Positions 1,616-24,772 of a stretch of DNA of 24,772 nucleotides are shown in pieces. The notes under the pieces are model-generated. The model saw nothing but the letters and a program-made list of their open reading frames with translations. It searched no databases and was not told the DNA's origin. A program made the position numbers and the translations under genes. Numbering within the stretch: the stretch's first letter is position 1; each line of letters starts with the position of its first letter. Source of the stretch: a virus; IMG/VR virus record IMGVR_UViG_3300009183_000347, positions 1-24,772 of that record, one strand, 5' to 3'.

Positions 1616-3025
1616 ATGGCACAATTTTTTTACGATCAACAAATTCGTCGCTTCTTACTACAGTTTGCCAGAATCTTCAGTAACTTCAGTGTCGAGTATG
1701 GCCGCAACGAATCTGGCAAAAACGACACACTAATTCGTGTGCCCGTTCGGTACGGCGATGCTAGCCGTCAAGCACAGACTATTATGCAACAAAACAGTGC
1801 CAGTGACATGCCGTCAACTCCATTAATGACGTTTTATGTCACAGGACTTGATTACGATCGTCCAAGAATGCAAGAGCCTAACTTTGTAAGTAACATGCAA
1901 GTTCGCCAACGCACCTATGATGAAGCAACTGACACATACGAAACCACGCAGGGCAATGCATTTACCATTGAGCGTTTGATGCCGGTACCATACAAGTTGA
2001 CCATTGCATTGGACATATGGACTTCAAACACCAATCAAAAAATGCAGATATTGGAGCAAATATTAGTGTTGTTTAACCCTGCATTAGAAATACAAAGCAC
2101 CGATAATTTTATTGACTGGACCAGTCTGACTGTGTGTAATCTTGAATCAACCAAATGGAGTAATCGAACCATTCCGATCGGAACTGAAAACCCTATAGAC
2201 ATAGCTACGCTTACCTTTAGTATACCAATTTGGTTGTCAAGTCCAGCCAAGGTCAAGAAGTTGGGCGTAGTCGAACGCATTGTCATGAGTGTGTTTGATG
2301 CCAATGGTGACGCTAGTAATGCTATTCTTGACAATGACCTGTTGTTGGGCACACGACAAGTGATTACCCCGTACGGATATCAAACTTTGTTGATTGGCGG
2401 CAGTCCTGGCACTGTTGGTCGATTACAAGCCTTGCGTGAACAACAAGTGGTTGATCAACCCAATGCCAGTTTGAATCCGGCCAGTAGCCCAGACAGCAAT
2501 TTGTTATGGCACAATGTTGTTGGAGCATACGGGGTGTTGAGAGACGGCATCAGCTACATTAAATTAGAACAAGATGATGGAACCGAAGTGGTTGGTCATG
2601 TCAGTTACGATCCAACTGATGATCGATTCCTGTTATTCACTGTGGACCCTGTGTCGACTCCTGGCAACACATTAGAACCGGTATTGTCTGTTATTGATCC
2701 ACTACGCAGTGGACCAGGTGCAGGATTGATTGCACCAGTGGCAGGACAACGGTATTTGTTTACTGAAGCTACCGGAACATTTAACGAAGGCTATGCAGAA
2801 GCATGGGCCGGTGTCAGTGGGCAACCTCTGGTTGCTCAAGCCAACGATATTGTTGAGTATGATGGCGCCAGGTGGACAATTTCTTTTGACAGCAGCTCAA
2901 GTCCAGATAATATACAGTATGTCACAAATATCACAACAGAAATACAGTATGAATGGACTGGTACAGCATGGATTAAATCATATCAAGGCCTGTATCCTGG
3001 AGGCACATGGAGTCTAGTATTATAA
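1616..3025 (+). CDS. 15: Tail sheath stabiliser/completion protein, T4 gp15 family, extended
   Basis: A 469-residue protein. The N-terminal half has the gp15 hallmarks: FFYDQQIRRFLLQFARIFSNF (compare FYNSSFRRYATLMGDLFSN in T4), IRVPVRYGDASR, then MPVPYKLTIALDIWTSN and QILEQILVLFNPAL, which align by pattern with T4 YELSIFTRYEDDMFQIVEQILPYFQP. T4 gp15 caps the sheath and tube and joins them to the neck, and is 272 residues long. Here about 235 residues are added, ending in a Trp-rich segment with YDGARWTISF and YEWTGTAWIKSYQG, reminiscent of fibre or sugar-binding repeats. It starts immediately after the gp14 stop, so the two are co-transcribed and probably co-translated, consistent with their adjacent roles at the head-tail joint. 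Family assignment is strong; the function of the extension is unknown. Confidence 0.85.
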   Translation: MAQFFYDQQIRRFLLQFARIFSNFSVEYGRNESGKNDTLIRVPVRYGDASRQAQTIMQQNSASDMPSTPLMTFYVTGLDYDRPRMQEPNFVSNMQVRQRTYDEATDTYETTQGNAFTIERLMPVPYKLTIALDIWTSNTNQKMQILEQILVLFNPALEIQSTDNFIDWTSLTVCNLESTKWSNRTIPIGTENPIDIATLTFSIPIWLSSPAKVKKLGVVERIVMSVFDANGDASNAILDNDLLLGTRQVITPYGYQTLLIGGSPGTVGRLQALREQQVVDQPNASLNPASSPDSNLLWHNVVGAYGVLRDGISYIKLEQDDGTEVVGHVSYDPTDDRFLLFTVDPVSTPGNTLEPVLSVIDPLRSGPGAGLIAPVAGQRYLFTEATGTFNEGYAEAWAGVSGQPLVAQANDIVEYDGARWTISFDSSSSPDNIQYVTNITTEIQYEWTGTAWIKSYQGLYPGGTWSLVL

Positions 3026-3447
3026 AAGCAGTGGGTGTTTGGTTTTATGCGGTCAATACTCGCCGCTATCTGTATCTCATGCGGAATGATTCAAAACATC
3101 CGGGGTCATGGGGATTACCTGGTGGACGTGTGGAATTCGGCGAAACCTTAATGACTGCTATTGTCAGAGAGTGTGAAGAAGAAATTGGATCAATGCCTGA
3201 CTATGTGCGTATGATGCCGTTGGAAAAGTTCACTACCGTAGATGCAGGATTTGAGTATCATACGTTTTTTTGCATTGTGAATCAAGAATTTCGACCCACG
3301 CTAAATTACGAACATATAGGTTATGCCTGGATTGATTCAGGCACTTGGCCCAAACCCATGCATCCAGGACTGTGGTCAACTGTGAATTTTGAAGCGGTAC
3401 AAAATAAGATTTTGACTATTGAATCCAGCGTTTATACATCACAGTAA
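3007..3447 (+). CDS. Nudix hydrolase (GDP-mannose mannosyl hydrolase-like)
   Basis: A 146-residue protein with a complete Nudix box at residues about 37-59: GGRVEFGETLMTAIVRE followed by CEEEIG, fitting G-x5-E-x7-REU-xEExGU with every metal-binding Glu present. Nudix enzymes cleave a nucleoside diphosphate linked to another group. The upstream WGLPGGRVEFGE segment and the small size recall the GDP-mannose/sugar-nucleotide subgroup, but the substrate cannot be read from sequence. The ATG at 3007 lies inside the end of gp15 (19-base overlap), so translation is probably coupled. The 3' end overlaps the convergent 220-aa gene by 16 bases, with no terminator between. T4 also carries a Nudix gene, but placement directly after gp15 is not the T4 arrangement. 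Confidence 0.85.
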   Translation: MESSIIKAVGVWFYAVNTRRYLYLMRNDSKHPGSWGLPGGRVEFGETLMTAIVRECEEEIGSMPDYVRMMPLEKFTTVDAGFEYHTFFCIVNQEFRPTLNYEHIGYAWIDSGTWPKPMHPGLWSTVNFEAVQNKILTIESSVYTSQ

Positions 3448-4094
3448 CTGATAAACTCAGGGTAGGTCATAACCTGAGTGTTAAAACAGTCAACCCAGAC
3501 GTCAGGCATACGTGTGCTTTCGCCTACCAGATAAAACTTAACACCCGGATAAGCTAAAAATACTTCAGCAAGTTGTGATTCCCAATTTAATGAATTGCCT
3601 GGTGATTCATCTGTGTAGCCCAATAAGAACACTTCCTTATGGCCATCAAACGCAGCCAGATATACCGCAAGAGTCATATCAATTAATCTGGGTTTATGCG
3701 GAATTAAATAAAATTCTCCAGGATTAGCAATACAATTACGTGCAGTGGTATACACAATATTGTCTTGTTGATAACCTGTCTCTAAAATTGTAGCTAAATT
3801 GTTGTTATCAGTTTCTACTGCAAAGTCCAGTCGCATTTGTTGAGCAACCAATCCTGTGCCGTAAGTTTGTAGTTTTTTACTGCCTAGTAATCCGCCGCGG
3901 TGACGTTGTAGTCGTGTGTAATCAAACTGCCACTGATCTAAATTGCTGCCAATGCAGGCCGCACGACCCGACAGGTGATGATTGTCAATGGGATTTGGAA
4001 TCCATTCTCTGGATTCTTCTTTTTTACCGGCACCCCATCGAGTTTCTAATATTACAAATTCGCCAGCATAGTCTGTGCGATATCTAGACTGCAT
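3432..4094 (-). CDS. Conserved-looking protein of unknown function, possibly sugar-transferase-like
   Basis: A 220-residue protein beginning MQSRYRTDYAGEFVILETRW. It has no signal peptide or membrane span. Two segments stand out: GRAACIGSN near residue 44 and, near residue 140, DMTLAVYLAAFDGHKEVFLL followed by GYTDE. The second resembles the pattern of a helix, a strand and an acidic end (xxALGxKEIYLxGxD) in sialyltransferase-like and DUF115-like proteins, but this is weak inference. Its ATG shares a base with the stop of the 353-aa fibre gene (TAATG), so it is translationally coupled to a fibre and probably acts with it, as assembly factor, tip protein or modifier. The 3' end overlaps the Nudix gene on the other strand. 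Confidence 0.75.
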   Translation of the reverse strand: MQSRYRTDYAGEFVILETRWGAGKKEESREWIPNPIDNHHLSGRAACIGSNLDQWQFDYTRLQRHRGGLLGSKKLQTYGTGLVAQQMRLDFAVETDNNNLATILETGYQQDNIVYTTARNCIANPGEFYLIPHKPRLIDMTLAVYLAAFDGHKEVFLLGYTDESPGNSLNWESQLAEVFLAYPGVKFYLVGESTRMPDVWVDCFNTQVMTYPEFISYCDV

Positions 4095-5155
4095 TATGAC
4101 CTTCCTACTGCTACTTCTATCACTCCAGGTTCGGTTGAATTGTATTCTTGTAAGGCTTTACCAACTATGCATCCAGGTTGGTATAAATTGACATCTAAGG
4201 CTTGGGCAACGCCAGGTCGATCACTGGACACTAAACGATCGCCTTTGCGTACGGTGCCAACTACTGAGCAAGGAACTCGCCCGACCAAAGCCACTTCAAG
4301 TGGATGCTCGCCTGTTTGAGTAGAGTTCATTAGGTATGCTGGTTGTGTAGATATAATGCCAGCCACCTGTGTGGAGTGTGTTGCGCTTGTGATTGTTATC
4401 TCACGGTCGCCGCCGAATTCTACCACTGTTCCAGGAGCATAGGCCGTATCGGCTACATACATTTCGGCCAAGTCAGCGTATTGTGCTGACGTTGCTTTGG
4501 CAAATATAGTGTTGTAGCTGAGTGTGGCACTGCCGATATTGGCAGTGGCATTGGCTGTTGGCATGAGGTTGCCAGTGACAACAACATTACCTGTGCCATT
4601 AGGAATAAGATTAATGTTGCCATTGGTTGCGGTTGTTTGCAAATCAAGATTACCAGTGTTATCAACTAAGATGCCAGTTATAACCAAGTTACCACCATTT
4701 ATGTTGCCACTAACACTTAAACTAGTACCTGTTATTACTCCGCCAACTACACTTGCGGCTGTTGTTGTGCCAGTTACACTTGTGCTTGATCCTGTTATTA
4801 CTCCGCCAACTACACTTGCGGCAGTGACAGCACCAGTGGCACTGATTAATCCAGTAACTGCCAATCCACTTGAGTAGGTGTTTGTAATTGTGCTTCCGCC
4901 TACGTTGGCACGAATGTTGCCGCCGCTGGCAATCACTGCTACACTTGATGTTCCAAAGCTGATGCTGTTGGCACTTAGAGCTGATATTTGACTAGTCACA
5001 TAGGCCACAGTGGCAATGTTGCTGCCTCCCACTGTGATAGCATCATGCACCCGCAGGGTTCCGTTAGTAGTGTCTACTGTGATTTCTGCCAAAGCGCCGG
5101 TGAATGCCGCATTTTGTGCATTGGTACCGCGTCTGTATTGAACTTGTGAGGCCAT
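4094..5155 (-). CDS. Tail fibre with Mtd_N-like start and YADLAE C-terminal domain
   Basis: A 353-residue protein. Residues 1-50 (QVQYRRGTNAQNAAFTGALA, then TVDTTNGTLRVHDA) match the N-terminal domain of the Bordetella phage major tropism determinant, which is common at the start of phage fibres. The middle is Gly/Ser/Thr/Asn-rich and holds two copies of the 21-residue AASxVGGVITG repeat. Residues about 227-353 form a compact domain starting YADLAE and containing AGIIST, ALVGRVPCSVVG, VRKGDRLVSS and GKAL. A close relative ends the 1802-aa fibre. This recalls self-cleaving or chaperone domains of fibres (peptidase G2 type), but no catalytic residue can be assigned. A CATAAATA box and an AGGA ribosome binding site precede the start. 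The 220-aa gene is coupled downstream. Confidence 0.88.
   Translation of the reverse strand: MASQVQYRRGTNAQNAAFTGALAEITVDTTNGTLRVHDAITVGGSNIATVAYVTSQISALSANSISFGTSSVAVIASGGNIRANVGGSTITNTYSSGLAVTGLISATGAVTAASVVGGVITGSSTSVTGTTTAASVVGGVITGTSLSVSGNINGGNLVITGILVDNTGNLDLQTTATNGNINLIPNGTGNVVVTGNLMPTANATANIGSATLSYNTIFAKATSAQYADLAEMYVADTAYAPGTVVEFGGDREITITSATHSTQVAGIISTQPAYLMNSTQTGEHPLEVALVGRVPCSVVGTVRKGDRLVSSDRPGVAQALDVNLYQPGCIVGKALQEYNSTEPGVIEVAVGRS
4700..4840 (-). repeat. Two 21-residue repeats in the 353-aa fibre
   Basis: Two tandem 63-base units encode AASVVGGVITG, the same unit as the larger fibres. Limits are approximate. Confidence 0.8.
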
Positions 5156-5171
5156 TTTAAATTCCTATATG

Positions 5172-5179
5172 CTATTTAT
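5172..5179 (-). promoter_or_regulatory. T4-late-like promoter for the 353-aa fibre gene
   Basis: CATAAATA on the minus strand contains the TAA stop codon of the upstream 1208-aa gene. There are 16 bases to the ATG at 5155, including an AGGA ribosome binding site. Predicted start site near 5166. Confidence 0.62.
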
Positions 5180-8100
5180 GTTACTATGGCACGGTCTGTT
5201 ACTCTGCGCCAATTTGTGCCATCGCCAAAGGCTGGCACTGGGCCGCCCGTTTCGTTGGTCACATATATCATTGCGCCAGCTATTGCGGAACTGGGCAAAG
5301 TACCGGTGGTGTAACTGGGCAAAACAAACTGATCTGGGTAAAGCAAGCCCGAAGTTACAATAGTGTCTAGATCACTTTGAGACGTAACTGCATCAGTAAC
5401 CAAGCCCAAATCTTCTGATACTGTAACTGGTTCTATTACTGTTCCGAAATCTGCGCCGTCTACAAAAAGTTCACTGCCGCCCTGTGTGCCAATGGTTATA
5501 GTGTCTGTAGTTGGATCAACCGTAATACTGATACCGGTACCGGCTGTCAAAGTCAGGGTGTCGGCTATGCTGTCTGCTACAGCACTGTTGCCACCAGTGA
5601 CTGTGACGTTGCTGAATACATTGATACCAGACAAGCCAGCACCGTTGCCTAAAATATTACCACCTGTGACATTTCCACTGGCACTTAAACTACTACCAGT
5701 TATTACCCCGCCAACTATAGATGCCGCTGTTGTTGTACCAGTTACACTTGTTGAAGATCCAGTTATTACTCCGCCAACAGTTGAGGCAGCTGTTTGTGTG
5801 CCAGTGACCGATACACTTGAGCCTGTAATTACACCACCCACTGTGCTGGCTGCAGTTACAGTTCCTGTAACACTGGCACTGGATCCGGTAATAACCCCAC
5901 CAGCTAGTGATGCGGCGGTGACTCCGCCACTAACGCTGGCACTGGATCCGGTAATAACCCCACCCACTGTTGAAGCAGTAGTCACAGTTCCTGTTACACT
6001 TACGTTGGTTCCTGTGTGATTGGTGGCACTGATGTTGCCACCAGTGATGTTACCGGTTGCACTTAATATTCCTTGCGATGATAACCCATTGGTTGCTACC
6101 CAAATATTTGATGTGCTGTTGTAGGTCAAACTAATATATTCACTGCCGGCTGGTCCAACTCCAATACCGCCACCATTGGCTGCGGCTGCAGTGGCTGCAT
6201 TGTTGGCCATGTTAATGGTTAGGTCATTTGTAGTGACGTTGTTACTGTTGATATAAGTTACGTTACCTGTAACACTCAAGTTGCCTGTGATGATCACGTT
6301 GCCGTCGGTGCCGCCAGATCCGTTTGGATCAATAGTCAATGTCGGACCGGTACTGACAATGTTGGCACCAGTGATTGTAATATTGCCATTGGTTAATGCT
6401 GTAGAGGCTACAACATTGCTACCTGTTACATTACCAGTGACACTGGAACTTGACCCAGTGATCACTCCGCCCACAGTGCTGGCAGCTGTTACCGTTCCGC
6501 TTACACTGGCAGAGCTACCGGTTATAACACCACCTACAGTGCTGGCGGCAGTTTGTGTACCAGTTACGCTGGTTGAACTACCAGTTATTACACCACCCAC
6601 AGTTGATGCGGCAGTAACTGTTCCTGTTACACTTGCACTACTACCAGTTATTACACCACCAACAGTGCTGGCAGCTGTAACTGTTCCAGTAACACTTGAA
6701 CTGGATCCAGTTATAACTCCACCTACGGTACTAGCGGCAGTAGCAGTGCCGGTTACAGAACTACTAGATCCAGTTATTACACCACCAACAGTGCTGGCAG
6801 CTGTAACTGTGCCGGTTACACTTACATTAGTTCCAGTATGATTAGTGGCACTGATGTTGCCACTGGTGATGTTACCGGTAACACTTAACAATCCTGTTAC
6901 GTATTCACCCGTTGAGGCAAATACTACTACGTTACTTGTTCCACCTATGCTGATGTTGGCATTGCCACCGCTGGTGCCAACATTGGCTTCACTGGTTCCA
7001 TTGTAGATTTTGCTGGCAGTGATACCGTTGGCGTAGAATACGTTGCCTAATAAATAATTTCCTGTGATGTTGCCGGTGGCACTTACTACACCGCCAGTTA
7101 AGACATTGCCGCCAGTTACATTACCTGTAACTGATGTTGAACTGCCGGTTATAACTCCACCAACCGTACTGGCTGCTGTAACTGTTCCTGTTAATGATGC
7201 ACTGGTTCCAGTTATCACTCCGCCCACTGTGGAGGCTGCTGTTTGTGTACCAGTAACACTAGAACTTGACCCAGTGATCACACCGCCCACAGTCGATGCG
7301 GCTGTAACCGTGCCAGTTACCGAAACATTAGTTCCTGTGTGGTTGGTAGCTGAGATATTACCACTGGTGATATTACCTGTTACACTGAGTAATCCAGTTA
7401 CATATTCACCCGTGGTGGCAAAAACAACCACGTTGCTGGTTCCGCCAATTGATATATTAGCATTACCGCCCGAAGCGCCAATGTTGGCTTCACTAGTACC
7501 GTTGAATATACGACTGGCATAGATACCACTTGCACAAGCCACATTACCTAAAAAATAATTTGCCGTGATATTACCAGTTGCCGAAACTACTCCAGCAGTT
7601 AAAACATTACCGCCTGTAACGTTTCCAGAAGCACTTAAACTTGATCCAGTTATTACACCACCCACAGTTGATGCAGCAGTTTGTGACCCGGTGACACTGG
7701 TTGATGTTCCTGTAATAACACCACCTGCCACTGAGGCAGCAGTAACACCACCCGATACGCTTGCACTTGTGCCAGTAATCACGCCACCCACAGTTGATGC
7801 AGCGGTGACTGTTCCAGTAACACTTGAACTAGATCCTGTAATAACACCACCCACCGTGCTGGCAGCCGTCACAGTACCTGTTACACTTGCACTAGTTCCT
7901 GTAATAACACCACCTACAGTTGAGGCTGCTGTAACTGTTCCTGTAACACTAACAGTAGTTCCTGTGTGATTAGTAGCAGAAATATTACCACCAGTGATGT
8001 TGCCAGTGGCTGAAATCAAGCCACCTGTAAGAATGTTACCACTAGTGACGTTACCCGTACTACTCATTATGCCACTGGTTAAAATATTGCCACCAGTGAT

Positions 8101-8802
8101 GTTGCCAACTGTGCTGGTATTGCCACTGGCATCAGCAGTTACTACATTGGCGCTGTTGATTGTTAATGTATTTGAAGTTGCACCGATAGTAACGTTACCA
8201 ATATAGATACTATTATTGGCTACATATAAACTTTTCCAAACATTGGTTGCACTACCTAAATTATATGTGGCATTGGCTGCTGGAACAATGTTTCCAGTTA
8301 GAACTATACCGGTACTACTCACTGTCAACACGTTGGCCGTGCCGGCGCTGCTGATAACAACGTTGGCATTTGAGAATACCGTTACATTGCTCGAGCCACC
8401 TGCGATCGAGTTGGCCATGTAGTTTTGTGTAAAGGTCAGGGCTGTGGTATTGATCGTAATAGGATCATCGGTGATCAGTTTCCACTGTGTATCAGCGTAA
8501 ATTACACCTTCAGTGACCATCACAATCATACCGGCTTCTATTTCACCGTTTTCGTTACCATCGCTTGTTCTTGCCCAGGTACCGTTTGAGCCGGATCCTA
8601 ACGTAGTTACATAGTATAATCCATTTTGACTGCCTGTAGTTTGACCTGTTACCAGAACACGGTCGCCAACACTAAGACTAACACCATCTACACTACTAGG
8701 GGCACCGCCGGTCAACGAAACACTGACTGTGGTCACTACTCTTGTAGACTGTTTGTAGTCTAAATTAAATATCTGCGCGGCACGTGGTTTGGTTAATCCC
8801 AT
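5176..8802 (-). CDS. Long repeat-rich tail fibre (1208 aa)
   Basis: The N-terminal 130 residues resemble a widespread fibre module: DGVSLSVGDRVLVTGQT, NGLYYV, an aromatic WARTSD, then IYADTQWKL. The shaft (about 150-1040) is Gly/Ser/Thr/Asn/Val-rich and has 19 copies of a 21-residue unit (SVTGTVTAASTVGGVITGSS type) in four arrays of 5, 3, 6 and 5, separated by unique segments. These include two near-identical blocks around NVVVFAxTGEYVTGLLSVTG. Regular Val/Ile spacing fits a trimeric beta-helix or beta-roll shaft, an inference. The C-terminal 160 residues are unique, with no YADLAE domain, and end NWRRVTDRAIVT. A terminator and then a GCTAAATA box precede the start. As a long fibre it would carry host recognition at its C-terminal tip. 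Confidence 0.9.
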   Translation of the reverse strand: MGLTKPRAAQIFNLDYKQSTRVVTTVSVSLTGGAPSSVDGVSLSVGDRVLVTGQTTGSQNGLYYVTTLGSGSNGTWARTSDGNENGEIEAGMIVMVTEGVIYADTQWKLITDDPITINTTALTFTQNYMANSIAGGSSNVTVFSNANVVISSAGTANVLTVSSTGIVLTGNIVPAANATYNLGSATNVWKSLYVANNSIYIGNVTIGATSNTLTINSANVVTADASGNTSTVGNITGGNILTSGIMSSTGNVTSGNILTGGLISATGNITGGNISATNHTGTTVSVTGTVTAASTVGGVITGTSASVTGTVTAASTVGGVITGSSSSVTGTVTAASTVGGVITGTSASVSGGVTAASVAGGVITGTSTSVTGSQTAASTVGGVITGSSLSASGNVTGGNVLTAGVVSATGNITANYFLGNVACASGIYASRIFNGTSEANIGASGGNANISIGGTSNVVVFATTGEYVTGLLSVTGNITSGNISATNHTGTNVSVTGTVTAASTVGGVITGSSSSVTGTQTAASTVGGVITGTSASLTGTVTAASTVGGVITGSSTSVTGNVTGGNVLTGGVVSATGNITGNYLLGNVFYANGITASKIYNGTSEANVGTSGGNANISIGGTSNVVVFASTGEYVTGLLSVTGNITSGNISATNHTGTNVSVTGTVTAASTVGGVITGSSSSVTGTATAASTVGGVITGSSSSVTGTVTAASTVGGVITGSSASVTGTVTAASTVGGVITGSSTSVTGTQTAASTVGGVITGSSASVSGTVTAASTVGGVITGSSSSVTGNVTGSNVVASTALTNGNITITGANIVSTGPTLTIDPNGSGGTDGNVIITGNLSVTGNVTYINSNNVTTNDLTINMANNAATAAAANGGGIGVGPAGSEYISLTYNSTSNIWVATNGLSSQGILSATGNITGGNISATNHTGTNVSVTGTVTTASTVGGVITGSSASVSGGVTAASLAGGVITGSSASVTGTVTAASTVGGVITGSSVSVTGTQTAASTVGGVITGSSTSVTGTTTAASIVGGVITGSSLSASGNVTGGNILGNGAGLSGINVFSNVTVTGGNSAVADSIADTLTLTAGTGISITVDPTTDTITIGTQGGSELFVDGADFGTVIEPVTVSEDLGLVTDAVTSQSDLDTIVTSGLLYPDQFVLPSYTTGTLPSSAIAGAMIYVTNETGGPVPAFGDGTNWRRVTDRAIVT
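5690..6006 (-). repeat. Array 4 of the 1208-aa fibre (5 units of 63 bp)
   Basis: Five tandem units of the 21-residue repeat, with variants AASLAGG and AASIVGG. The peptide is conserved while codons vary between units. Limits are approximate. Confidence 0.85.
6437..6832 (-). repeat. Array 3 of the 1208-aa fibre (6 units of 63 bp)
   Basis: Six tandem units, all AASTVGGVITGSS, differing at the residue after TG (T then V, A or Q) and at the final Ser/Ala/Thr. Limits are approximate. Confidence 0.85.
7132..7332 (-). repeat. Array 2 of the 1208-aa fibre (3 units of 63 bp)
   Basis: Three tandem units between the two copies of the NVVVFAxTGEYVTG block. Limits are approximate. Confidence 0.82.
7630..7962 (-). 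repeat. Array 1 of the 1208-aa fibre (5 units of 63 bp)
   Basis: Five tandem units including one AASVAGG variant, nearest the N-terminus. Limits are approximate. Confidence 0.85.
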
Positions 8803-9611: not shown

Positions 9612-12600
9612 TTAGAAGCGTCCTACTACCACTTCAATTGTGCCTTCTGCACCGTCAAAGTCTTCCAGTGCTTTACCAATCACTGAGCCAACCTTTGGAT
9701 CTACACTTGACTGTGCGCGACCCAAGCCTGCTGCCACCATCAAGTCACCCTTGCGGACTGGTCCAACCACTAGTGTTGGCACACGACCTGTCAATGCCAC
9801 TGTGGCCACATGCTCGGCTTCTAATCCGCTATTCATGGTGTAACTTGGATTGGTACTCACTACACCAGCTACTTTGGTATCACCGGCTACAGCGTTGACT
9901 GTGACTTCTGCTGTGCCACCAAATATGACCACTGTGCCCGGTGCGTATTCTGCATCAGCTGTGTATTTCTCTGCCAAGTCAGCATATTGAGCTGAAGTTG
10001 CTTTGGCAAACACAGTGTTGAAGTAGTTTGCTGAACTACCAATATTGCCCACGGCATTACCGTTGGCGTTGATGATATTACCTAATGTAACATTACCAGT
10101 ACCCAATGTTACACCACCTGTGGAAAATACTGCCACATTACTTGTTCCACCAACGCTCACAGTTACGTTGCCGCCTGAACTGACAACTTTGGCATTTGAT
10201 GTGCCGCTTACTATTTGAGTAGCATCAATACCAGTCAACTGACTACCGTTACCAAGAATGTAACTTCCACTAATATTGCCAGTGCCAGTTACATTGCCAG
10301 CCACACTCAAACCACTGGCACTGCTAAATGCAGCTATTGCAGTAGGAGTTATAGAATTTGTAGCTGTTGTGAAAATTGCTACATTGGTAGCACGGCTGGT
10401 ATCAGTAAAGGCCTCTGCGGCCACAACGTCAACTCGACCAGTTGATGCATTACCAAACTGTAAGGTTCCGCTACTGAATCCACGTCCGGTAAACTGAGCA
10501 ATGGTATCTGCAGACTGTGTTTGTGTAGGACTGGCCGCAGTACCTCTGGCCGCACGTCCAGTAAACGCCACGTATGCAGCTGTACCAAACGTGTCTTGTG
10601 TGATACGAGTCTGTGTAGCATCTGCACCAACTATGTGCAAGTCTGTTCCCAAGGTAGTGCTGAAGCCAGTTAGCGTGTAGGTTGACGTTTGTGGGTTTGC
10701 CAAAATAGTAATTTCAGCATCTGGAGTAGCGGTACCTACACCAATACGGCCGGGTGTAGAAGTATCGGTGCCAGTGATAATGTTGCCAAATGCACTTACA
10801 ATACCACCAGTGATGATGTTACCACCAGTGATGTTACCTGCTACACTGCTTGAAGTAGTTGCACCGGCCAACACAGTTTGTCCGCCTGCTGGGTTGGTCA
10901 TCACAATTGCTGTGGCATTGGCACTGATTTGAGCATTGCCCAGATAGATTGTGCTGTTGCTCAAGTATAAATCTTTCCAACGCTGTGTTGCACTACCCAA
11001 GTTGTAGACAACGTTGCTCAAAGGCAGGATGTTGGCATTGGCAATCATGTCTGTTCTAGTAAACAGAGTCATAGGGTCATTGCTACCCACGTCAATATTC
11101 ACGTTGCCATTGGGTGTTGGTATTTGAACAGCACTGTTGCCATTTTGAATCTGGTTAGTGGCCACGTTACCAAGAATAGTAGCATTGCCTGATACATTCA
11201 AATCACCCACAACGTTGGCTATACCTGTTATGGTAACAATGTTATTGGTGTCACTGACTCCAACTGAAGCATTGGCACTTACGTTGGTCAAACTCAACAA
11301 GGTTGTTGTTGTGGTCAATGCACGAACATCAATCAAGTCGCCTGATGCAGGAGCTTCTGTAAATGTCAATGTCACGTTGGCCACACTGTAGGCCGAAGTT
11401 GGTATCTGTAACACACCGTTGATACTGACAATTGTTGCAGCTGTGGTTGACGCATTGGCCAATGTAAAGTCAACTGTTGCTCCGTCACCGTTGAACTGTT
11501 GATCAGTGATAACTGTAAACACTGTAGATCCAACACCTATCCAAGCACTGTTGTTGTATATTTCTATACTGTTGGTAGTGCTGTTGAACCGCAACATACC
11601 AGTAACACCTGTGGCCGGACGCTGACCTTGCGTACCAGCTGGTAACAAGATTGAATTGGTACTGTTGAACGCTACAATAGCATTGACGGTCTGTGTGCTT
11701 GAACCAAAGCTGGCTGTGTTGGCGGTTGCATCAACAAAGAACACATTGGCGCCAGTTCCACTTACTGAGAAGTTGGTGTTGGCTCCGGCTCCGTTGATTT
11801 GTATTGTACCACCTGCGGCCAACATGTTAATAGCGTTGCCAGTAGTACCACCAACCACAATGTTACCAGCAATTACATTGCCGGTTATGACGTTGCTGGT
11901 AGCACCGGTACTGATATTACCAGTAGCACTAATCAACCCACCTGTTAACACATTGCCCAATGTGGCGTTGCCAGTAGCACTTACGGTTGTGCTATACACA
12001 TTACCATTGAAACTGACTGCGTCAACGTTGGCACCAACTGTGACTGTGTTTGATGTTTTGTTAAATGTGAATCCGCTGGTAGCGTTGGCTATTCCACTGT
12101 CATTGAATAGAATGTTGGTGTTGGCACCAGGAGAAGTAATATTACCAGAAACGTTACCAACAAAGTAGTTACCATACACGTTGCCAGTGGCACTTACGAT
12201 ACCACCAGTTAGGATGTTTCCACCAGTGATGTTACCAGAGCCACTGATTGCACCACCAGATCCACTTGTTACAAGATTTCCGGCTGTGACGTTGCCAGTT
12301 GCACTTACACTGGTACCTGTGATTACACCGCCCACTGTTGAAGCAGCAGTAGCGGTGCCAGTAACACTGACACTCGAACCAGTAATAATACCACCCACTG
12401 TGCTGGCTGCTGTAACAGTACCTGTAACACTGACTGTGGTTCCATATACGTTGCTGTTGGTATTGCCAGCATCTACGTTGCCAGTAACGCTAACTGAACT
12501 ACCTGTAATCACACCACCCACTGTTGATGCAGCAGTTTGTGTGCCAGTGACTGAACTAGAACTACCTGTAATCACACCACCCACTGTAGATGCAGCTGTT

Positions 12601-15020
12601 TGTGTGCCAGTGACACTAGAACTTGAACCGGTGATTACACCGCCCACTGTTGAAGCAGCTGTTTGTGTGCCAGTTACTGAACTGGAACTACCAGTGATCA
12701 CACCACCCACTGTTGAAGCGGCAGTAGCAGTGCCAGTAACACTGACACTTGATCCTGTAATCACGCCACCCACTGTGCTTGCAGCTGTGACTGTGCCTGT
12801 TACACTGACACTTGTTCCTGTGGCTGCACCAATGTTGGGTGTGGTCAATACAGCACCGGCTGGTATATATAACTGATTACTACCATTGATGCCAATTGTG
12901 GCATTGCCCGATGTATCATAAAGAACGTTGAACTGTGTTCCAGTAAGACTTAATGCGTTACCTGCTGTGTATTGACCTGCACCAGAGAACTGTACGAATA
13001 CAATTGCTGTTGTTCCCATAACTACTGGTGCATTGGTGGTACAGACCCATCCAGTATCAGCATAAATTGTACCGTCTTGAACAAATGTAAACGCACTTGG
13101 AACTTCAGCAGCCTGGTTCATATCTGTGGCACGGGTCAATACTGTGGCACTGGTATAGGTGTAGATACCGTTGTTTGCTTGTGTTGCTTCGTTCTTGACC
13201 AACACACGAGTGCCAACTGTGGCAATATTTACACCGTCAATTGTGGTGTATGTACCAGTTGTGGTCAATGTGGCACCCACACCCGCGGTACCGTTGTTGT
13301 ATGTTATTACACCACCAGAAAGATTGGCCAATGTGTTACCGGTCGCAGCCAACACAGGTGCCTTGGGACTAAGACCTTGTGCCACACTGTCAACATAGAA
13401 TTTGGTTGCGGCATCTTGGTCGGCCACTGGATCTGCTAAATTGTTGATCCATCTGCTGTTCATACCCACGTTGCCGGTAGGATTTAAACTGATTGTTTGA
13501 GCACTAATTGTAAGTGTTGTGTTTGCAGTGGTACTGTAAATGTAATCAGTAATGACATTACCGCCTGTTACGTTGCCACTAACACTGACACTTGTACCAG
13601 TAATAACGCCACCCACAGTGCTAGCGGCAGTTTGTGTGCCAGTGACACTCGAACTTGAGCCAGTGATCACACCACCTACAGTGCTGGCCGCTGTTTGTGT
13701 ACCAGTGACACTTGAACTTGAGCCAGTGATCACACCACCAACCGTACTGGCAGCTGTTTGTGTGCCAGTGACACTTGTGCTTGTGCCAGTGATAACTCCA
13801 CCTGCTACACTGGCTGCATCAACGCCACCTGTAACGCTGACTGAACTACCGGTGATAACACCACCCACTGTTGAAGCAGCAGTTTGTGTACCAGTGACAC
13901 TAGAACTTGAACCTGTAATTACACCACCAACCGTACTGGCAGCTGTTTGTGTGCCAGTTACTGAACTGGAACTACCAGTGATCACACCACCCACTGTGCT
14001 GGCAGCTGTTTGTGTGCCAGTGACACTGGTTGAAGTACCTGTAATGACTCCGCCTGCTACTGAGGCTGCATCAACGCCACCTGTAACGCTGACACTTGAG
14101 CCAGTTATGACTCCACCCACTGTGCTAGCGGCTGTTTGTGATCCGGTGACACTGGTACTTGAGCCAGTGATAACGCCGCCCACTGTGCTGGCTGCAGTTG
14201 CAGTGCCAGTGACACTGACATTTGTACCAGTTAAATTAGTTCCACTTACGTTGCCAGCATCAATGTTGCCGCCTGCACTGATCAATCCACCAGTTAATAA
14301 ATTACCGCCAGTGATGTTGCCACTAACACTTATACTTAAAGCACTAAATGATCCAGCGGTACTAATATTACCGAAGATACCATTGCCAGTTGCACTTACT
14401 TGTCCACCGGTTAATACATTGCCAAATGTGGCATTTCCTGTGCCTGATGTTATACCACCAGTTAAGATATTGCCGCCGGTGATGTTGCTGGTGGCACTCA
14501 CTGTGCCCGGAGTGGCCAAGTTGCCGCCGGTGATTGTGGCCGTAGCGTTGACAGCACCAATCAAGTTACCAACTAGACTTGTAGTGCCTTGAACTGTGGT
14601 ATTTCCACTGTGTAAGTTAGCATAGGTGGAGATGGTAAATGTTGTATTACTAACCGTAGTGCTACTCAGTGCTGTAACGAATTCTTTCTGGTCTTCTTTC
14701 CAGGCCAATACTGCAGATTGTTGACTGCCACGCAGGCCAATTGTACCAATGTCCAAAGTAGGAGTACCAACGGTCTGTCCGTCGGCTAGTGTGATCAACG
14801 GGTCTGCAATTAGTGTGTTAACTGTGTCAACGTTGGTTGTGGTACCCGAAACTGTCAAGTTACCCGTAATAGTCAAATCACTACCGTAGGTCAAATTGTT
14901 GGCAATTCGAGTGGCTGTAATCGAATATGGTTGTAATTTGGTTCCAGCGTTAATACCTACTATGGTATTACCGGCCGCGGCGTCGGTTACTTGATTGTTA
15001 TTAATTCTAGTTACGGCCAT
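9612..15020 (-). CDS. Giant modular tail fibre (1802 aa)
   Basis: The largest gene here. Modules in order: an N-terminal fibre-start domain (MAVTRINNNQVTD to about residue 130); a Gly/Ser/Thr shaft with ten 21-residue repeats (about 265-480); a globular fibre module at about 530-715 (DAATKFYVDSVAQGL, GTRVLVKNEAT, NGIYTY, YADTGWVC); a second shaft with seven repeats (about 735-905); a module at about 1127-1243 (GQRPATGVTGMLRFN, YNNSAWIG, FTEAPASGDLIDVRAL) shared with two other proteins here; further beta-rich spacer; and from about 1678 the YADLAE C-terminal domain shared with the 353-aa fibre. The start has a GGAG ribosome binding site 7 bases upstream. It is probably a long tail fibre. The C-terminal domain may aid trimerisation or be cleaved off; that is inference. 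Confidence 0.9.
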   Translation of the reverse strand: MAVTRINNNQVTDAAAGNTIVGINAGTKLQPYSITATRIANNLTYGSDLTITGNLTVSGTTTNVDTVNTLIADPLITLADGQTVGTPTLDIGTIGLRGSQQSAVLAWKEDQKEFVTALSSTTVSNTTFTISTYANLHSGNTTVQGTTSLVGNLIGAVNATATITGGNLATPGTVSATSNITGGNILTGGITSGTGNATFGNVLTGGQVSATGNGIFGNISTAGSFSALSISVSGNITGGNLLTGGLISAGGNIDAGNVSGTNLTGTNVSVTGTATAASTVGGVITGSSTSVTGSQTAASTVGGVITGSSVSVTGGVDAASVAGGVITGTSTSVTGTQTAASTVGGVITGSSSSVTGTQTAASTVGGVITGSSSSVTGTQTAASTVGGVITGSSVSVTGGVDAASVAGGVITGTSTSVTGTQTAASTVGGVITGSSSSVTGTQTAASTVGGVITGSSSSVTGTQTAASTVGGVITGTSVSVSGNVTGGNVITDYIYSTTANTTLTISAQTISLNPTGNVGMNSRWINNLADPVADQDAATKFYVDSVAQGLSPKAPVLAATGNTLANLSGGVITYNNGTAGVGATLTTTGTYTTIDGVNIATVGTRVLVKNEATQANNGIYTYTSATVLTRATDMNQAAEVPSAFTFVQDGTIYADTGWVCTTNAPVVMGTTAIVFVQFSGAGQYTAGNALSLTGTQFNVLYDTSGNATIGINGSNQLYIPAGAVLTTPNIGAATGTSVSVTGTVTAASTVGGVITGSSVSVTGTATAASTVGGVITGSSSSVTGTQTAASTVGGVITGSSSSVTGTQTAASTVGGVITGSSSSVTGTQTAASTVGGVITGSSVSVTGNVDAGNTNSNVYGTTVSVTGTVTAASTVGGIITGSSVSVTGTATAASTVGGVITGTSVSATGNVTAGNLVTSGSGGAISGSGNITGGNILTGGIVSATGNVYGNYFVGNVSGNITSPGANTNILFNDSGIANATSGFTFNKTSNTVTVGANVDAVSFNGNVYSTTVSATGNATLGNVLTGGLISATGNISTGATSNVITGNVIAGNIVVGGTTGNAINMLAAGGTIQINGAGANTNFSVSGTGANVFFVDATANTASFGSSTQTVNAIVAFNSTNSILLPAGTQGQRPATGVTGMLRFNSTTNSIEIYNNSAWIGVGSTVFTVITDQQFNGDGATVDFTLANASTTAATIVSINGVLQIPTSAYSVANVTLTFTEAPASGDLIDVRALTTTTTLLSLTNVSANASVGVSDTNNIVTITGIANVVGDLNVSGNATILGNVATNQIQNGNSAVQIPTPNGNVNIDVGSNDPMTLFTRTDMIANANILPLSNVVYNLGSATQRWKDLYLSNSTIYLGNAQISANATAIVMTNPAGGQTVLAGATTSSSVAGNITGGNIITGGIVSAFGNIITGTDTSTPGRIGVGTATPDAEITILANPQTSTYTLTGFSTTLGTDLHIVGADATQTRITQDTFGTAAYVAFTGRAARGTAASPTQTQSADTIAQFTGRGFSSGTLQFGNASTGRVDVVAAEAFTDTSRATNVAIFTTATNSITPTAIAAFSSASGLSVAGNVTGTGNISGSYILGNGSQLTGIDATQIVSGTSNAKVVSSGGNVTVSVGGTSNVAVFSTGGVTLGTGNVTLGNIINANGNAVGNIGSSANYFNTVFAKATSAQYADLAEKYTADAEYAPGTVVIFGGTAEVTVNAVAGDTKVAGVVSTNPSYTMNSGLEAEHVATVALTGRVPTLVVGPVRKGDLMVAAGLGRAQSSVDPKVGSVIGKALEDFDGAEGTIEVVVGRF
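12300..12820 (-). repeat. Second repeat array of the 1802-aa fibre (7 units, interrupted)
   Basis: Five tandem 63-base units, one degenerate spacer (NVDAGNTNSNVYGTTVSV), then two more units. Limits are approximate. Confidence 0.84.
13580..14222 (-). repeat. First repeat array of the 1802-aa fibre (10 units)
   Basis: Ten tandem 63-base units. Units 3-6 and 7-10 form a higher-order duplication of 4 x 63 = 252 bases: the marker GCATCAACGCCACCTGTAAC occurs on the plus strand at 13816 and again at 14068. Limits are approximate. Confidence 0.86.
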
Positions 15021-21157: not shown

Positions 21158-22108
21158 TTACGAAGTATAGTTCTGAACATCGCCCAAGGTCAATAGACCA
21201 GTGGTATTGGTCCAGGTTGAAACTTCTGCACCAGATTTAGCAGTTGTTGAAGTTTCTTCGCTGAATGTAAGGCCGCGTGTATTACCAGCCACAGTAACAA
21301 TGTTGGCAGCACCTTCAGAAGCAGCCAACTGGAATGTTGTTGTTCCGTTAGTATCAACTACATAATAAACGGTTGGATCAACATAGCCAGTGATTGTGGC
21401 ATTACCTGTTAAAGTTCCGCTGACATTGATAATTTGACCTGTTGTAAAGGTGCTAGCATTGGCCGTAAACCAACCTGCAGTATTGGCAACAGCAACACTG
21501 CCTAGTGTAACAGCAGTTGTTTCGCCGGCTACAAAGAAGTTAACTGCATAACGAACAGGTTGAGGACTTGTATTATCCCAAATATACTTGTTGGTCAAGC
21601 GACTGGCGTAAATTGCGCTGCCGTCAGCATTGAATACCATGTTCATTTCACCTGAGTTGATAGTACCACCTGCAACTAAATTGCATTGAGCAACCGCAGT
21701 AGCAGTACCAGTACCAGAACCCACGTCTGTGGCTGTGAACACAGTGCCAACTACTGGCACAGCAGGTCCGCCGATTGCTGTCCAATCGGTATCACCTACG
21801 CTAAGAATTCGATAGCTGTAACCGACTGTAAAACTTCCTGCACTGACCGAACTTGCATCTGTTACCAGATACTTGGTAGTGCCTTTTTGTGTAATAATGT
21901 AAGCGGCACCTTCTACACCATTGATGTTGGCTGTAATTTTAACTACTGGATAATCAGCAGTAGCAATACCAACATTGGCACCACCAACTACACCTAGGAA
22001 TTCTGTAGAAGTTATTCCGGTCGGAATAACTGCGGCTGTTAAGTTACCAAAGTCATTGAAACCAATGTCAACGGTAGTAGATTGTTTAATTTTAAGTGGA
22101 CGACCCAT
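21158..22108 (-). CDS. Virion structural protein, possibly capsid decoration or fibre (316 aa)
   Basis: A 316-residue protein opening MGRPLKIKQSTTVDIGFNDF, then GNLTAAVIPTGITSTEFLGV VGGA. This opening recalls abundant structural proteins of marine T4-like phages. Residues about 95-140 (YSYRILSVGDTDWTAIGG followed by GTVFTATDVGSGTGTATA) form a small beta module common in phage surface proteins. The C-terminal third (FQLAASEGAANIVTVAGN, RGLTFSEET) is beta-rich. A GGAG ribosome binding site lies 8 bases upstream. It has its own late box, a structured leader and its own terminator, so it is a monocistronic unit, consistent with a protein made in high copy. Confidence 0.8.
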   Translation of the reverse strand: MGRPLKIKQSTTVDIGFNDFGNLTAAVIPTGITSTEFLGVVGGANVGIATADYPVVKITANINGVEGAAYIITQKGTTKYLVTDASSVSAGSFTVGYSYRILSVGDTDWTAIGGPAVPVVGTVFTATDVGSGTGTATAVAQCNLVAGGTINSGEMNMVFNADGSAIYASRLTNKYIWDNTSPQPVRYAVNFFVAGETTAVTLGSVAVANTAGWFTANASTFTTGQIINVSGTLTGNATITGYVDPTVYYVVDTNGTTTFQLAASEGAANIVTVAGNTRGLTFSEETSTTAKSGAEVSTWTNTTGLLTLGDVQNYTS

Positions 22109-22134: not shown

Positions 22135-22193
22135 TGTGGGTTCTAGCCCACTACGCAGGGGGTAAAGCCTGCATAAAACGCATGATTGCGTTG
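22135..22193 (-). promoter_or_regulatory. Structured 5' leader of the 316-aa gene (three hairpins)
   Basis: Three successive inverted repeats lie between the predicted start site (about 22193) and the ribosome binding site: AACGCA/TGCGTT with loop TGAT (plus-strand reading), GCAGG/CCTGC, and GTGGG/CCCAC. None has a T tract, so they look like stabilising or translation-control structure, not a terminator. Confidence 0.5.
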
Positions 22194-22219
22194 ACAAGTA
22201 TTTATGGTTAATATATATT
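22191..22219 (+). promoter_or_regulatory. Sigma70-like promoter for the TPR glycosyltransferase
   Basis: TTGACA (22191-22196), 17-base spacer, TATATT (22214-22219). Expected start site about 22226, giving a leader of some 22 bases. The minus-strand late box of the 316-aa gene lies inside the spacer. Confidence 0.72.
22199..22206 (-). promoter_or_regulatory. T4-late-like promoter for the 316-aa gene
   Basis: CATAAATA on the minus strand, 90 bases before the ATG at 22108, separated by the three-hairpin leader. Confidence 0.6.
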
Positions 22220-22247
22220 TTACAGGTGTTGCTTTATATCATTAAAT

Positions 22248-23399
22248 ATGATCATGGATACAGAACTATTGATAGCACACGGCAACACTGCCAGAGAAGA
22301 AAACAACCCAGAACTGGCATTAAAATATTATGCCCAGGCCCTGACTGAAGATCGCCGTTCAGCATCAGCATTCAACAACTACGGAAACGTATTACGCGAA
22401 TTGGGTGACCCGTTGGGTGCTATACCATTTTTACAACGCAGTATACAGCTGGCACCCACTCATCCAACTTCACAGTTCAATCTGGCTGTGGCTTATTTGT
22501 TAGCCGGTGACTATGCTCGTGGATGGCCACAATACGAAACTAGATGGAACTACGAACATCTTGCTGGCGAATTACCACAGTTTCCACAACCCAGATGGAC
22601 TGGGCAAGACGTCAAGGGCAAAACAGTCTTGGTCACAGGTGAACAAGGGCACGGGGACAATATACAATTTGTTCGATTCATTGGCGACATCATTGAGCGC
22701 GGCGCACGGGTAATTTTAACGTTGAATCCAAATCTTCGCCCATTGTTGCTTGGTCCTAGTATTCCGACAATTCTGGTTGAAGGTGATCCGTTGCCTGAGT
22801 TTGACTACTGGACACCGATCATGAGTATTCCTGGAGTGATTGGAACTACAGTTGAGAATTTGGCCAATGTGCAATTCTATTTGACTGCCGATGCCAAATT
22901 GCAACAAGAGTGGCAAACACGATTAGGCCACAAGAACCGACTGCGTGTGGGTTTTTGTTGGAGTGGTCGTAGGGACACTTGGATCAATCGACACAAAGCA
23001 ATGCCGTTTGAAACTATGTTAGAGCTGATTAAACGCAATCCCAGCTACGAATGGGTCAATTTACAATGTGATTGTACTGCTGATGAAGAAGCCCAACTAG
23101 TGGCCGCAGGTGTTCGAGCATATCCGGGTGCTATACGAAGTTTTGCTGATTCAGCTGCATTGATCATGCACATGGATGTGGTGCTGAGTGTTGACACTGC
23201 TGTGGCTCACTTGGCTGGTGCATTAGGTCGACCAGTCTGGGTCATGTTGAGTCAGTATGCACTTGATTGGCGCTGGTTACTTGACCGTGATTCAAGTCCA
23301 TGGTACTCGACTGCTAGATTGTTCCGTCAACCTACAATGGGCGACTGGACCACGGTTACAGATAAAATACACAAATTTTTAAGTTGGTACAAGATCTAA
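22248..23399 (+). CDS. TPR-domain glycosyltransferase (heptosyltransferase/GT9-like)
   Basis: A 383-residue protein. Residues about 5-110 are three TPR-like helical repeats (HGNTAREENNPELALKYYAQAL, FNNYGNVLRELGDPLGAIPF, FNLAVAYLLAGDYARGWPQY). Residues about 125-383 are a GT-B-type transferase: TGEQGHGDNIQFVRFI, VGFCWSGRR, then AALIMHMDVVLSVDTAVAHL, AGALGRPVWVML, DWRWLLDRDSSPWY and RLFRQ near the end. The last motifs match the donor-binding half of bacterial TPR-containing, ADP-heptose-transferase-like proteins. Acceptor and sugar are not readable. The ATG at 22248 is used; the one at 22254 is a possible alternative. It is the only plus-strand gene in a 21-kb minus block and has its own sigma70-like promoter, suggesting a later-inserted cassette. 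It ends 3 bases from the convergent 277-aa gene. Confidence 0.87.
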   Translation: MIMDTELLIAHGNTAREENNPELALKYYAQALTEDRRSASAFNNYGNVLRELGDPLGAIPFLQRSIQLAPTHPTSQFNLAVAYLLAGDYARGWPQYETRWNYEHLAGELPQFPQPRWTGQDVKGKTVLVTGEQGHGDNIQFVRFIGDIIERGARVILTLNPNLRPLLLGPSIPTILVEGDPLPEFDYWTPIMSIPGVIGTTVENLANVQFYLTADAKLQQEWQTRLGHKNRLRVGFCWSGRRDTWINRHKAMPFETMLELIKRNPSYEWVNLQCDCTADEEAQLVAAGVRAYPGAIRSFADSAALIMHMDVVLSVDTAVAHLAGALGRPVWVMLSQYALDWRWLLDRDSSPWYSTARLFRQPTMGDWTTVTDKIHKFLSWYKI

Positions 23400-23402
23400 A
23401 GA

Positions 23403-24236
23403 TTAAAATACCGAGTCAATAAAATCAGAATCTATTCCATATTGCAACAAAATAGATCGTGTTAGATCTAAGTATTTAGGATCTGTAAATCTCCTACTGT
23501 GCATCCAAATAATTGCATTAGGATCTTGGCCAAAATTTTCCATGTCTAGTAGTATTTCTTGATAAGTTCGAACTGTGTTCCACCCACCTGCACATAAAAA
23601 TGTATGAAAAGAACTTGGAAAGAATTTTATTTGGCTCTCTGGATCTTGCATTAAAAAAATATAATAACCATAATATTCACACCCAACAGGAAACTCGGTC
23701 CATTTACTATAATGACCAAATCGTTGATTGAGTGCAGACCAATAACGAGCAGTCTGCTGAACATTAAAAATATTAGGACGCAAGTTTACCATACCGGCAT
23801 AGTGACCTATTGGTCCGTCTACTAATCCAGATAAATTATAACCCATGTCTACTAGACGTTGAGTATTGTCTTGGCAAGGAATTCTATATTCGGTATTCTG
23901 TTTAAATGTTGACAAATCTGTGGGCTTTAACAAAAAACATTTACAATCCCAGGCTATTGCATCATCAACAGTTGAACTAGCAATACGATAGATTAAATTA
24001 ATTTGGTTACCGTAGTTGCCGTTGTCATAAGGATGGATTGTAGGGCAGATCTCTATAACCCAGTCTGGATCAAAAATTTCTAGTGCAATATTTTCAAAGA
24101 CATCTACACTGTCGCCTGTATCTAAACAAACTAACAAATTTTTATCACCTTTCCAGTTTTTGTTCATGCAGTAACAAAACATTTTAAACTGTGGAATGTC
24201 ATCAGTGAAAGTAGTAACTATGTTTTTATGAGTCAT
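23403..24236 (-). CDS. Protein of unknown function, possible glycosyltransferase (277 aa)
   Basis: A 277-residue soluble protein starting MTHKNIVTTFTDDIPQFKMF. The N-terminal third alternates strands and helices (NLLVCLDTG, WVIEICP, NQINLIYRIASSTVDDAIAW, DCKCFLLKPTDLS). DAIAWDCKCFLLKPTDL recalls the DSD-containing segment of DUF6492/GT-A-like enzymes, where an acidic pair precedes a hydrophobic strand and a Pro-x-Asp-Leu turn. The C-terminal half (IPCQDNTQR, GHYAGM, FPVGCEYYGYYIFLM, FHTFLC) is Tyr/Phe-rich. The similarity is weak. Base composition looks more A/T-rich than the fibre genes (many AAA/AAT codons), hinting at a separate origin. No convincing promoter is visible; the gene lies between the gp23 terminator and the TPR glycosyltransferase. 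Confidence 0.75.
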   Translation of the reverse strand: MTHKNIVTTFTDDIPQFKMFCYCMNKNWKGDKNLLVCLDTGDSVDVFENIALEIFDPDWVIEICPTIHPYDNGNYGNQINLIYRIASSTVDDAIAWDCKCFLLKPTDLSTFKQNTEYRIPCQDNTQRLVDMGYNLSGLVDGPIGHYAGMVNLRPNIFNVQQTARYWSALNQRFGHYSKWTEFPVGCEYYGYYIFLMQDPESQIKFFPSSFHTFLCAGGWNTVRTYQEILLDMENFGQDPNAIIWMHSRRFTDPKYLDLTRSILLQYGIDSDFIDSVF

Positions 24237-24325: not shown

Positions 24326-24772
24326 TTAGGAGAATGACAAGTTCTGAACTGCGATCTCGCCAACATAGTCAGCTGCGTTACCGAAGCTGGATGCTGTGTT
24401 GGTCAACTCAACAAATCCATAACGTGTCATGAATGACACGACTGGTTCGAAGGTTGATGGATCAAGAACAACGCCACTGCTCATCAACGGAATGTATGGG
24501 CAATAGAACGCTGCGGCATCAGCTTCGCTTGTGCCCTTATAGCCAACCAATACACTAGCTGTATCAGAAGCATAAGAGTTAACAAACACACGCATTGCAC
24601 CGTTCAATGTACCAACAAACTTGGTGTTTGTAGGTGCTTCGAATGTGCCTTCTGTTGTGCGAGCAAATGCACTAGTTGTTGCAGATTGCAACACTGTCAA
24701 CGAGGCTGGAGAAACAACAGCCCAGTTACCAGCACCACGACGTGTGCGTTGTGCGATCAAGTTAGCAACACG
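24326..24772 (-). CDS. 23: Major capsid protein, T4 gp23 family, C-terminal part (cut by right edge)
   Basis: 148 residues plus stop. The frame is open to the window edge, so the gene continues beyond it; the TTG at 24758-24760 is an internal codon, not a start. Hallmarks: IAQRTRRGAGNWAVVSP, TEGTFEAPTNTKFVGTLNG, VLVGYKGTSEADAAAFYCPY, IPLMSSGVVLDPSTFEP and FMTRYGFVEL, all characteristic of gp23 C-termini in marine T4-like phages. gp23 forms the hexamers of the head; T4 gp23 is 521 residues and is cleaved near its N-terminus, outside this window. It reads leftward, opposite to gp14 and gp15, and is followed by a strong terminator. Confidence 0.93.
   Translation of the reverse strand, partial: RVANLIAQRTRRGAGNWAVVSPASLTVLQSATTSAFARTTEGTFEAPTNTKFVGTLNGAMRVFVNSYASDTASVLVGYKGTSEADAAAFYCPYIPLMSSGVVLDPSTFEPVVSFMTRYGFVELTNTASSFGNAADYVGEIAVQNLSFS

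Follow-up and report, generated by a model that had tools for sequence, protein, structure and literature searches.

The main gene of interest in this 24.8-kb viral contig (24,772 nt, the whole stretch analysed and hereafter the window) lies at 22254-23399 on the plus strand and encodes a 381-aa protein, TPR-GT, in which about three TPRs (residues ~5-96) are followed by a GT-B/GT9-like domain. We propose, with a probability of roughly 0.45, that TPR-GT is a late cytoplasmic protein glycosyltransferase that acts on a virion protein and is FlmG/OGT-like in action. This reading is based on the architecture, conservation and position of the gene, on the promoter-like signals in front of it and on the sugar genes found in long relatives. 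The window belongs to a T4-like myovirus, as it combines the C-terminus of gp23, a gp15-type tail-sheath stabiliser gene (PF16724 match) and a long minus-strand adhesin block. The gp23 major capsid gene (24326-24760, minus strand; PF07068, 1.3e-41) is cut by the contig end, and its remaining C-terminal 144 aa are ~71-75% identical to gp23 of jumbo phages such as Phosso and PA5oct. TPR-GT is a lone plus-strand gene between s316 (21158-22108, minus strand), which opens the virion adhesin block and is its divergent neighbour, on one side and the minus-strand genes gp23 and u277 on the other. The earlier note had described a lone TPR/GT-B gene between capsid and structural genes, and Pfam, an AlphaFold model and a large set of relatives all bear this out.

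The open reading frame was first called at 22248-23399 (plus strand, 383 aa), two codons longer; the start at 22254 is the probable one, because it is where most relatives start and because the TAAATA box discussed below runs into the first ATG. Both halves of the protein are recognised by Pfam, with TPR_2 at 3.8e-10 and TPR_1 at 1.9e-9, and with Glyco_transf_9 (PF01075) at 4.6e-6 over residues 250-330 (26.6 bits against a cut-off of 22); PF01075 also exceeds its cut-off in all ten long TPR-GT-bearing records. The AlphaFold model (pLDDT 90, pTM 0.88) has TPR helices up to residue ~96-103 and then a two-Rossmann GT-B domain, for which the best domain-level PDB matches in Foldseek were the GT9 heptosyltransferases 1psw and 3tov (TM 0.53-0.54). 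OGT and SPINDLY gave the top Foldseek E-values, yet only with TM 0.25-0.36, because TPRs are paired with GT-B in both, and the sequence matches to OGT/SPY chains are confined to residues ~6-102, i.e. the TPRs. Consistent with this, Pfam found GT9 and no match to the GT41 catalytic model on TPR-GT. In sequence alignment alone, residues G134, G136 and D137 of a G-x-G-D loop are invariant across the main clade and unrelated phages, and D137 may occupy the catalytic Asp position, as in heptosyltransferases. An argument from an asparagine ladder in the TPRs (N44 and N78 are invariant) was dropped, as Asn at those sites belongs to the general TPR consensus. A scan of genome contigs for cellular relatives gave none that could be confirmed, and widening the alignment yielded no stretch fit for use.

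The GT9 assignment gives rise to the main rival explanation, which we consider rather unlikely, namely that TPR-GT does a GT9-like job on the host surface polysaccharide (LPS or capsule) and thereby blocks superinfection or re-adsorption of progeny. The catalytic domain is indeed closest to GT9 LPS heptosyltransferases, and the fact that characterised GT9 members make lipopolysaccharide counts against a virion-protein acceptor; on the other hand, the cellular GT9 LPS enzymes do without a TPR array.

Relatives of TPR-GT were found at a minimum of 346 IMG/VR loci, and none of the 50 dereplicated copies in the kept loci has an internal stop, so that the gene is not a chance open reading frame; it belongs to the regular gene content of one clade of large T4-like freshwater phages. 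The order s316 (minus), TPR-GT (plus), optional genes and gp23 (minus) was observed at essentially every locus with enough coverage, making gp23 and s316 the constant neighbours of the gene. TPR-GT is missing from several long records whose gp23 is 90-94% identical, which indicates that this type of capsid can do without it. A search for gp23 columns that split TPR-GT-bearing from TPR-GT-lacking phages returned 14, of which six are Ser/Thr gains, and was set aside as too confounded by ancestry. Distant TPR-GTs were also located in four unrelated phages (a podovirus, two freshwater cyanophages and a rhizobial phage; a set with no statistical control). The gene lies near the major capsid gene in podovirus MW202512, with two small genes between, downstream of a long tail-fibre gene in S-SRM01, and near a tail-fibre gene in BUCT-ZZ01; in RHph_X2_30 its neighbour is a convergent block that includes endolysin and tail genes. 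That distant homologues likewise sit beside or near virion genes speaks against a host-surface role.

Upstream of the gene, a TAAATA late-promoter-like box (22243-22248, plus strand) lies 5 nt 5' of the ATG at 22254. The box is present in all 65 distinct upstream regions, at 5 nt (45), 4 nt (19) or 7 nt (one) from the start codon, and the ~20 nt ahead of it vary among these loci; the base before it is usually T or G, that of most other late boxes C or A. T4 late promoters carry TATAAATA at -13 to -6, and those of phage Aeh1 carry CTAAATA from -12 (PMC1524935). The window contains no canonical TATAAATA late promoter and has TATAAAT at chance level, and its working late motif is [CA]TAAATA, as in Aeh1. 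Of the 13 structural genes of this window, 6 have TAAATA, with C, A or G in front of it, within 120 nt upstream on the coding strand, against 0.44 expected. When the T4 spacing is applied to the box of TPR-GT, the +1 falls on the A of the ATG at 22254, and transcription is thus predicted to give a leaderless late mRNA; a Shine-Dalgarno-like tetramer precedes the gene at only 9 of the 65 loci.

The same region holds a sigma-70-like promoter, TTGACA-17-TATATT (22191-22219, plus strand; 11/12 to consensus), of which TTGAC is kept at 59 of the 65 TPR-GT loci and is absent from most of the TPR-GT-lacking loci inspected. Its conservation was discarded as the mark of a purely TPR-GT promoter, as TTGACA overlaps the promoter/leader start of the divergent operon, and for this reason only the absence of TTGAC in most TPR-GT-lacking relatives counts. 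With both signals present, early as well as late expression of TPR-GT may be possible, and the sigma-70-like promoter would permit a modifier of the host surface to be expressed early. Against such a modifier, the late-type box and the position, which is kept down to 51% protein identity, link TPR-GT to the virion genes.

The divergent s316 operon provided an internal check of the spacing rule. Its ATAAATA late-promoter-like box (22199-22205, minus strand) gives a predicted +1 at 22193, which coincides with the first base of a match to the freshwater-2 RNA (Rfam RF02980; 22106-22193, minus strand). The match scores 64.4 bits with the covariance model against a gathering threshold of 49.9, covarying pairs were found across 20 leaders, and the 3' end of the leader carries a strong Shine-Dalgarno sequence. 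Of 24 related long phage records, 23 contain exactly one copy, 21 of them scoring above the cut-off, whether or not TPR-GT is there, and none of 14 cellular control genomes has any. To judge from these sequence matches, the Rfam orphan freshwater-2 is the structured 5' leader of a late adhesin operon in large T4-like phages; the orphan RNA would in this way gain a genomic home as the leader of a late virion operon. A literature search for freshwater-2 returned nothing on it.

Between TPR-GT and gp23, about one third of the loci have a gap without any gene of at least 90 aa, mostly 60-250 bp long, and the remaining gaps hold at least one gene. These genes include a cluster of SegE-like GIY-YIG endonucleases (29 loci), a family of 330-394 aa (12), radical-SAM proteins (9), structural proteins and the 277-aa family, with 14 entries that in part show one contig more than once. 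GT17, RimK ATP-grasp and 2OG-oxygenase genes turned up in one case each. From this varied content it follows that the gap is an insertion hotspot, which occasionally acquires modifying enzymes, and that the 277-aa gene (u277; 23403-24236, minus strand; possibly DUF6492-like) is optional. It had been put forward as a possible part of a glycosylation set, in which a core role does not suit one of many optional inserts, among which SegE-like GIY-YIG homing endonucleases are commoner. The DUF6492 profile gave a weak hit to one of eight members of the family, a relative (E=0.002), and none to the 277-aa protein of the window itself, for which a PDB profile search also gave no match; a GT-A-type transferase is a possible identity of the family.

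The repeat fibres of the window, fib1208 (5176-8802) and fib1802 (9612-15020), both on the minus strand, contain 32% and 28% Ser+Thr, respectively. They are thus as rich in these residues as the earlier note had claimed, and its dozens of SSSSVTG sites reduce to 12 exact motifs, or 39 with degenerate forms included. These fibres could specifically be the acceptor of TPR-GT, an explanation that their Ser+Thr content favours, as does the occurrence of strict repeats in 6 of 10 long TPR-GT-bearing records versus 2 of 18 without the gene (p 0.011; one of the two being an 85-kb fragment and the other a 1e-4 match). The proposed co-occurrence is therefore seen, with repeats that are not required: they are missing in 4 of the 10 TPR-GT-bearing records and present in the 85-kb fragment, in which no TPR-GT was found. 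Moreover, the association may reflect shared ancestry, and the fibres diverge faster than the TPR domain, so we regard the repeat fibres as an improbable specific acceptor. As a separate observation, fibres of the window (4094-5155 and 9612-15020) share a C-terminal domain, YADLAE...IEVxVGR, and are freely variable upstream of it, suggesting from sequence that fibre modules are exchanged at a fixed C-terminal cap.

Two further genes had been placed in the same set, a 220-aa Rossmann protein (3432-4094, minus strand), whose start overlaps the stop of a fibre gene, and its convergent neighbour, a Nudix hydrolase (3007-3447, plus strand). The coupling of the 220-aa gene to a fibre gene is real: at nearly all of 54 loci it lies 3' of a fibre with a conserved IEVxVGR-type C-terminus, usually with overlapping stop and start. 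It is followed by the convergent Nudix gene and then gp15 at all 64 of 64 loci. Fibre, 220-aa gene, Nudix gene and gp15 accordingly form a fixed block of their own, which several long records carry without TPR-GT, and a set that joins the 220-aa and Nudix genes to TPR-GT is not supported. For the 220-aa model (pLDDT 88), the top fold match was CstII (1ro8) at E 1.1e-3, with none under 1e-3, and two further GT42/Maf structures were among the top ten (9c08, TM 0.44; 5mu5, TMq 0.45), all three matches being weak. A fibre-specific transferase could be encoded here, which we offer as a lead only. The suggestion that the 277-aa and 220-aa proteins are transfer enzymes thus has weak support from the GT42/Maf-like matches and from the DUF6492 hit in one relative.

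Genes for a sugar donor were sought in the long relatives. A DegT aminotransferase gene with an NDP-sugar dehydratase/epimerase gene nearby was found in all ten long TPR-GT-bearing records versus four of nine without TPR-GT (Fisher p 0.011), and PF01370 (epimerase) counts are higher with TPR-GT (p 0.004), related phages being counted as independent in both tests. The closest long relative also encodes GalE-like epimerase, dTDP-glucose-dehydratase-like and sugar C-methyltransferase-like proteins. The cassette lies more than 60 kb from TPR-GT even if the genome is circular (one genome measured) and is present in some phages without TPR-GT; such distant sugar genes could feed other transferases instead. 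NeuB (PF03102) was found in none of 19 phage records and in 9 of 14 control genomes, Caulobacter included, and a nonulosonic sugar could be supplied by the host despite its absence from the phages; no PF00483 nucleotidylyltransferase was found in the phage records. In the large phages, ThyX-like, dehydratase, DegT aminotransferase, amidinotransferase-like and carbamoyltransferase-like genes form a conserved cassette (dehydratase and DegT called by profile, the others by eye).

That the long genomes carry sugar-nucleotide enzymes would suit a host-surface polysaccharide as well as a virion protein. A third explanation, in which small molecules, DNA bases or host proteins receive the sugar from TPR-GT and the gene's adjacency to gp23 is due only to frozen gene order, draws on the sugar and carbamoyl/amidino-transfer-like genes seen by sequence inspection near ThyX-like genes in long relatives, and on the fact that T4-type phages glucosylate DNA. 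We nevertheless think it quite unlikely, as the virion-gene neighbourhood is common to unrelated phages and DNA glucosyltransferases are not known to be TPR-fused.

Returning to the modification of a virion protein as the preferred reading, we propose that TPR-GT is expressed late as a soluble, cytoplasmic enzyme, whose short TPR array would dock a co-produced virion protein, either gp23 or a product of the neighbouring adhesin operon, with the repeat fibres as a possible but not required acceptor. The GT9-like GT-B domain would then draw on a nucleotide-sugar to attach one sugar to Ser/Thr in this protein before or during assembly, resulting in a glycosylated particle, and the donor may be an amino-deoxysugar from the phage-encoded cassette. 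Catalysis, the protein acceptor, the donor and the purpose, be it shielding or adsorption, are what we infer here. Virion glycosylation, as first suggested, fits the architecture, position, late-type signals and distant relatives, and the set of fibre, Nudix, 220-aa and 277-aa genes proposed with it is not supported in that form. Going further, TPR-GTs may represent a phage-specific class of TPR-guided, GT9-type counterparts of FlmG and OGT, leaderless and late, that decorate freshwater T4-like virions with a phage-made amino-deoxysugar, although we would not expect this full picture to hold. Virion protein glycosylation has been documented in few phages, and how the enzymes choose virion proteins is a gap. 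If our reading is true, a TPR-guided transferase beside gp23 in an abundant freshwater clade offers a clear enzyme-acceptor pair to test, could account for how uncultured phages are shielded or adsorb, and might become a compact protein-glycosylation tool.

A TPR plus GT9-type domain as a capsid-linked phage gene appears to be new, and the titles that literature searches brought up included no description of one; the enzyme type is already known from cells. Databases already contain phage proteins of homologous fold, unnamed or labelled 'GT9': the S-SRM01 'tetratricopeptide repeat protein' (YP_010670313.1) and Caudovirales 'Glycosyl transferase, family 9' proteins have the same TPR+GT9 fold (TM 0.85/0.73), with an identity of only ~20% over the matched part and a different locus. 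TPR-GT shares PF01075 and the GT-B fold with the GT9 heptosyltransferases (E. coli heptosyltransferase II, 1psw; 3tov), has a G-x-G-D loop that may correspond to theirs, and differs from them in its TPR fusion, its late-type phage gene and an acceptor that is probably not LPS. Similarly, OGT and SPINDLY (GT41) have a TPR array ahead of a GT-B domain, whereas the catalytic domain of TPR-GT scores as GT9 and its sequence match to them is confined to the TPRs. The mycobacteriophage enzymes that glycosylate virions are not known to be TPR-fused. The glycosylation of mycobacteriophage capsids and tail tubes, tied to phage glycosyltransferases (Freeman et al. 2023, as cited in PMC12619734), resembles our proposal in its glycans on virion proteins and its phage glycosyltransferases. 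FlmG of Caulobacter crescentus binds flagellin by its TPR domain and glycosylates it in the cytoplasm, and this protein of 596 aa, including a 313-aa TPR part, uses a pseudaminic acid donor made with NeuB (PMC7591256). TPR-GT differs in having only about three TPRs and, in 19 phage records, no NeuB; by description, both have N-terminal TPRs and a C-terminal GT-B domain, and, like the soluble cytoplasmic FlmG, TPR-GT would act on a surface-fibre or shell protein that assembles by itself, ahead of that assembly.
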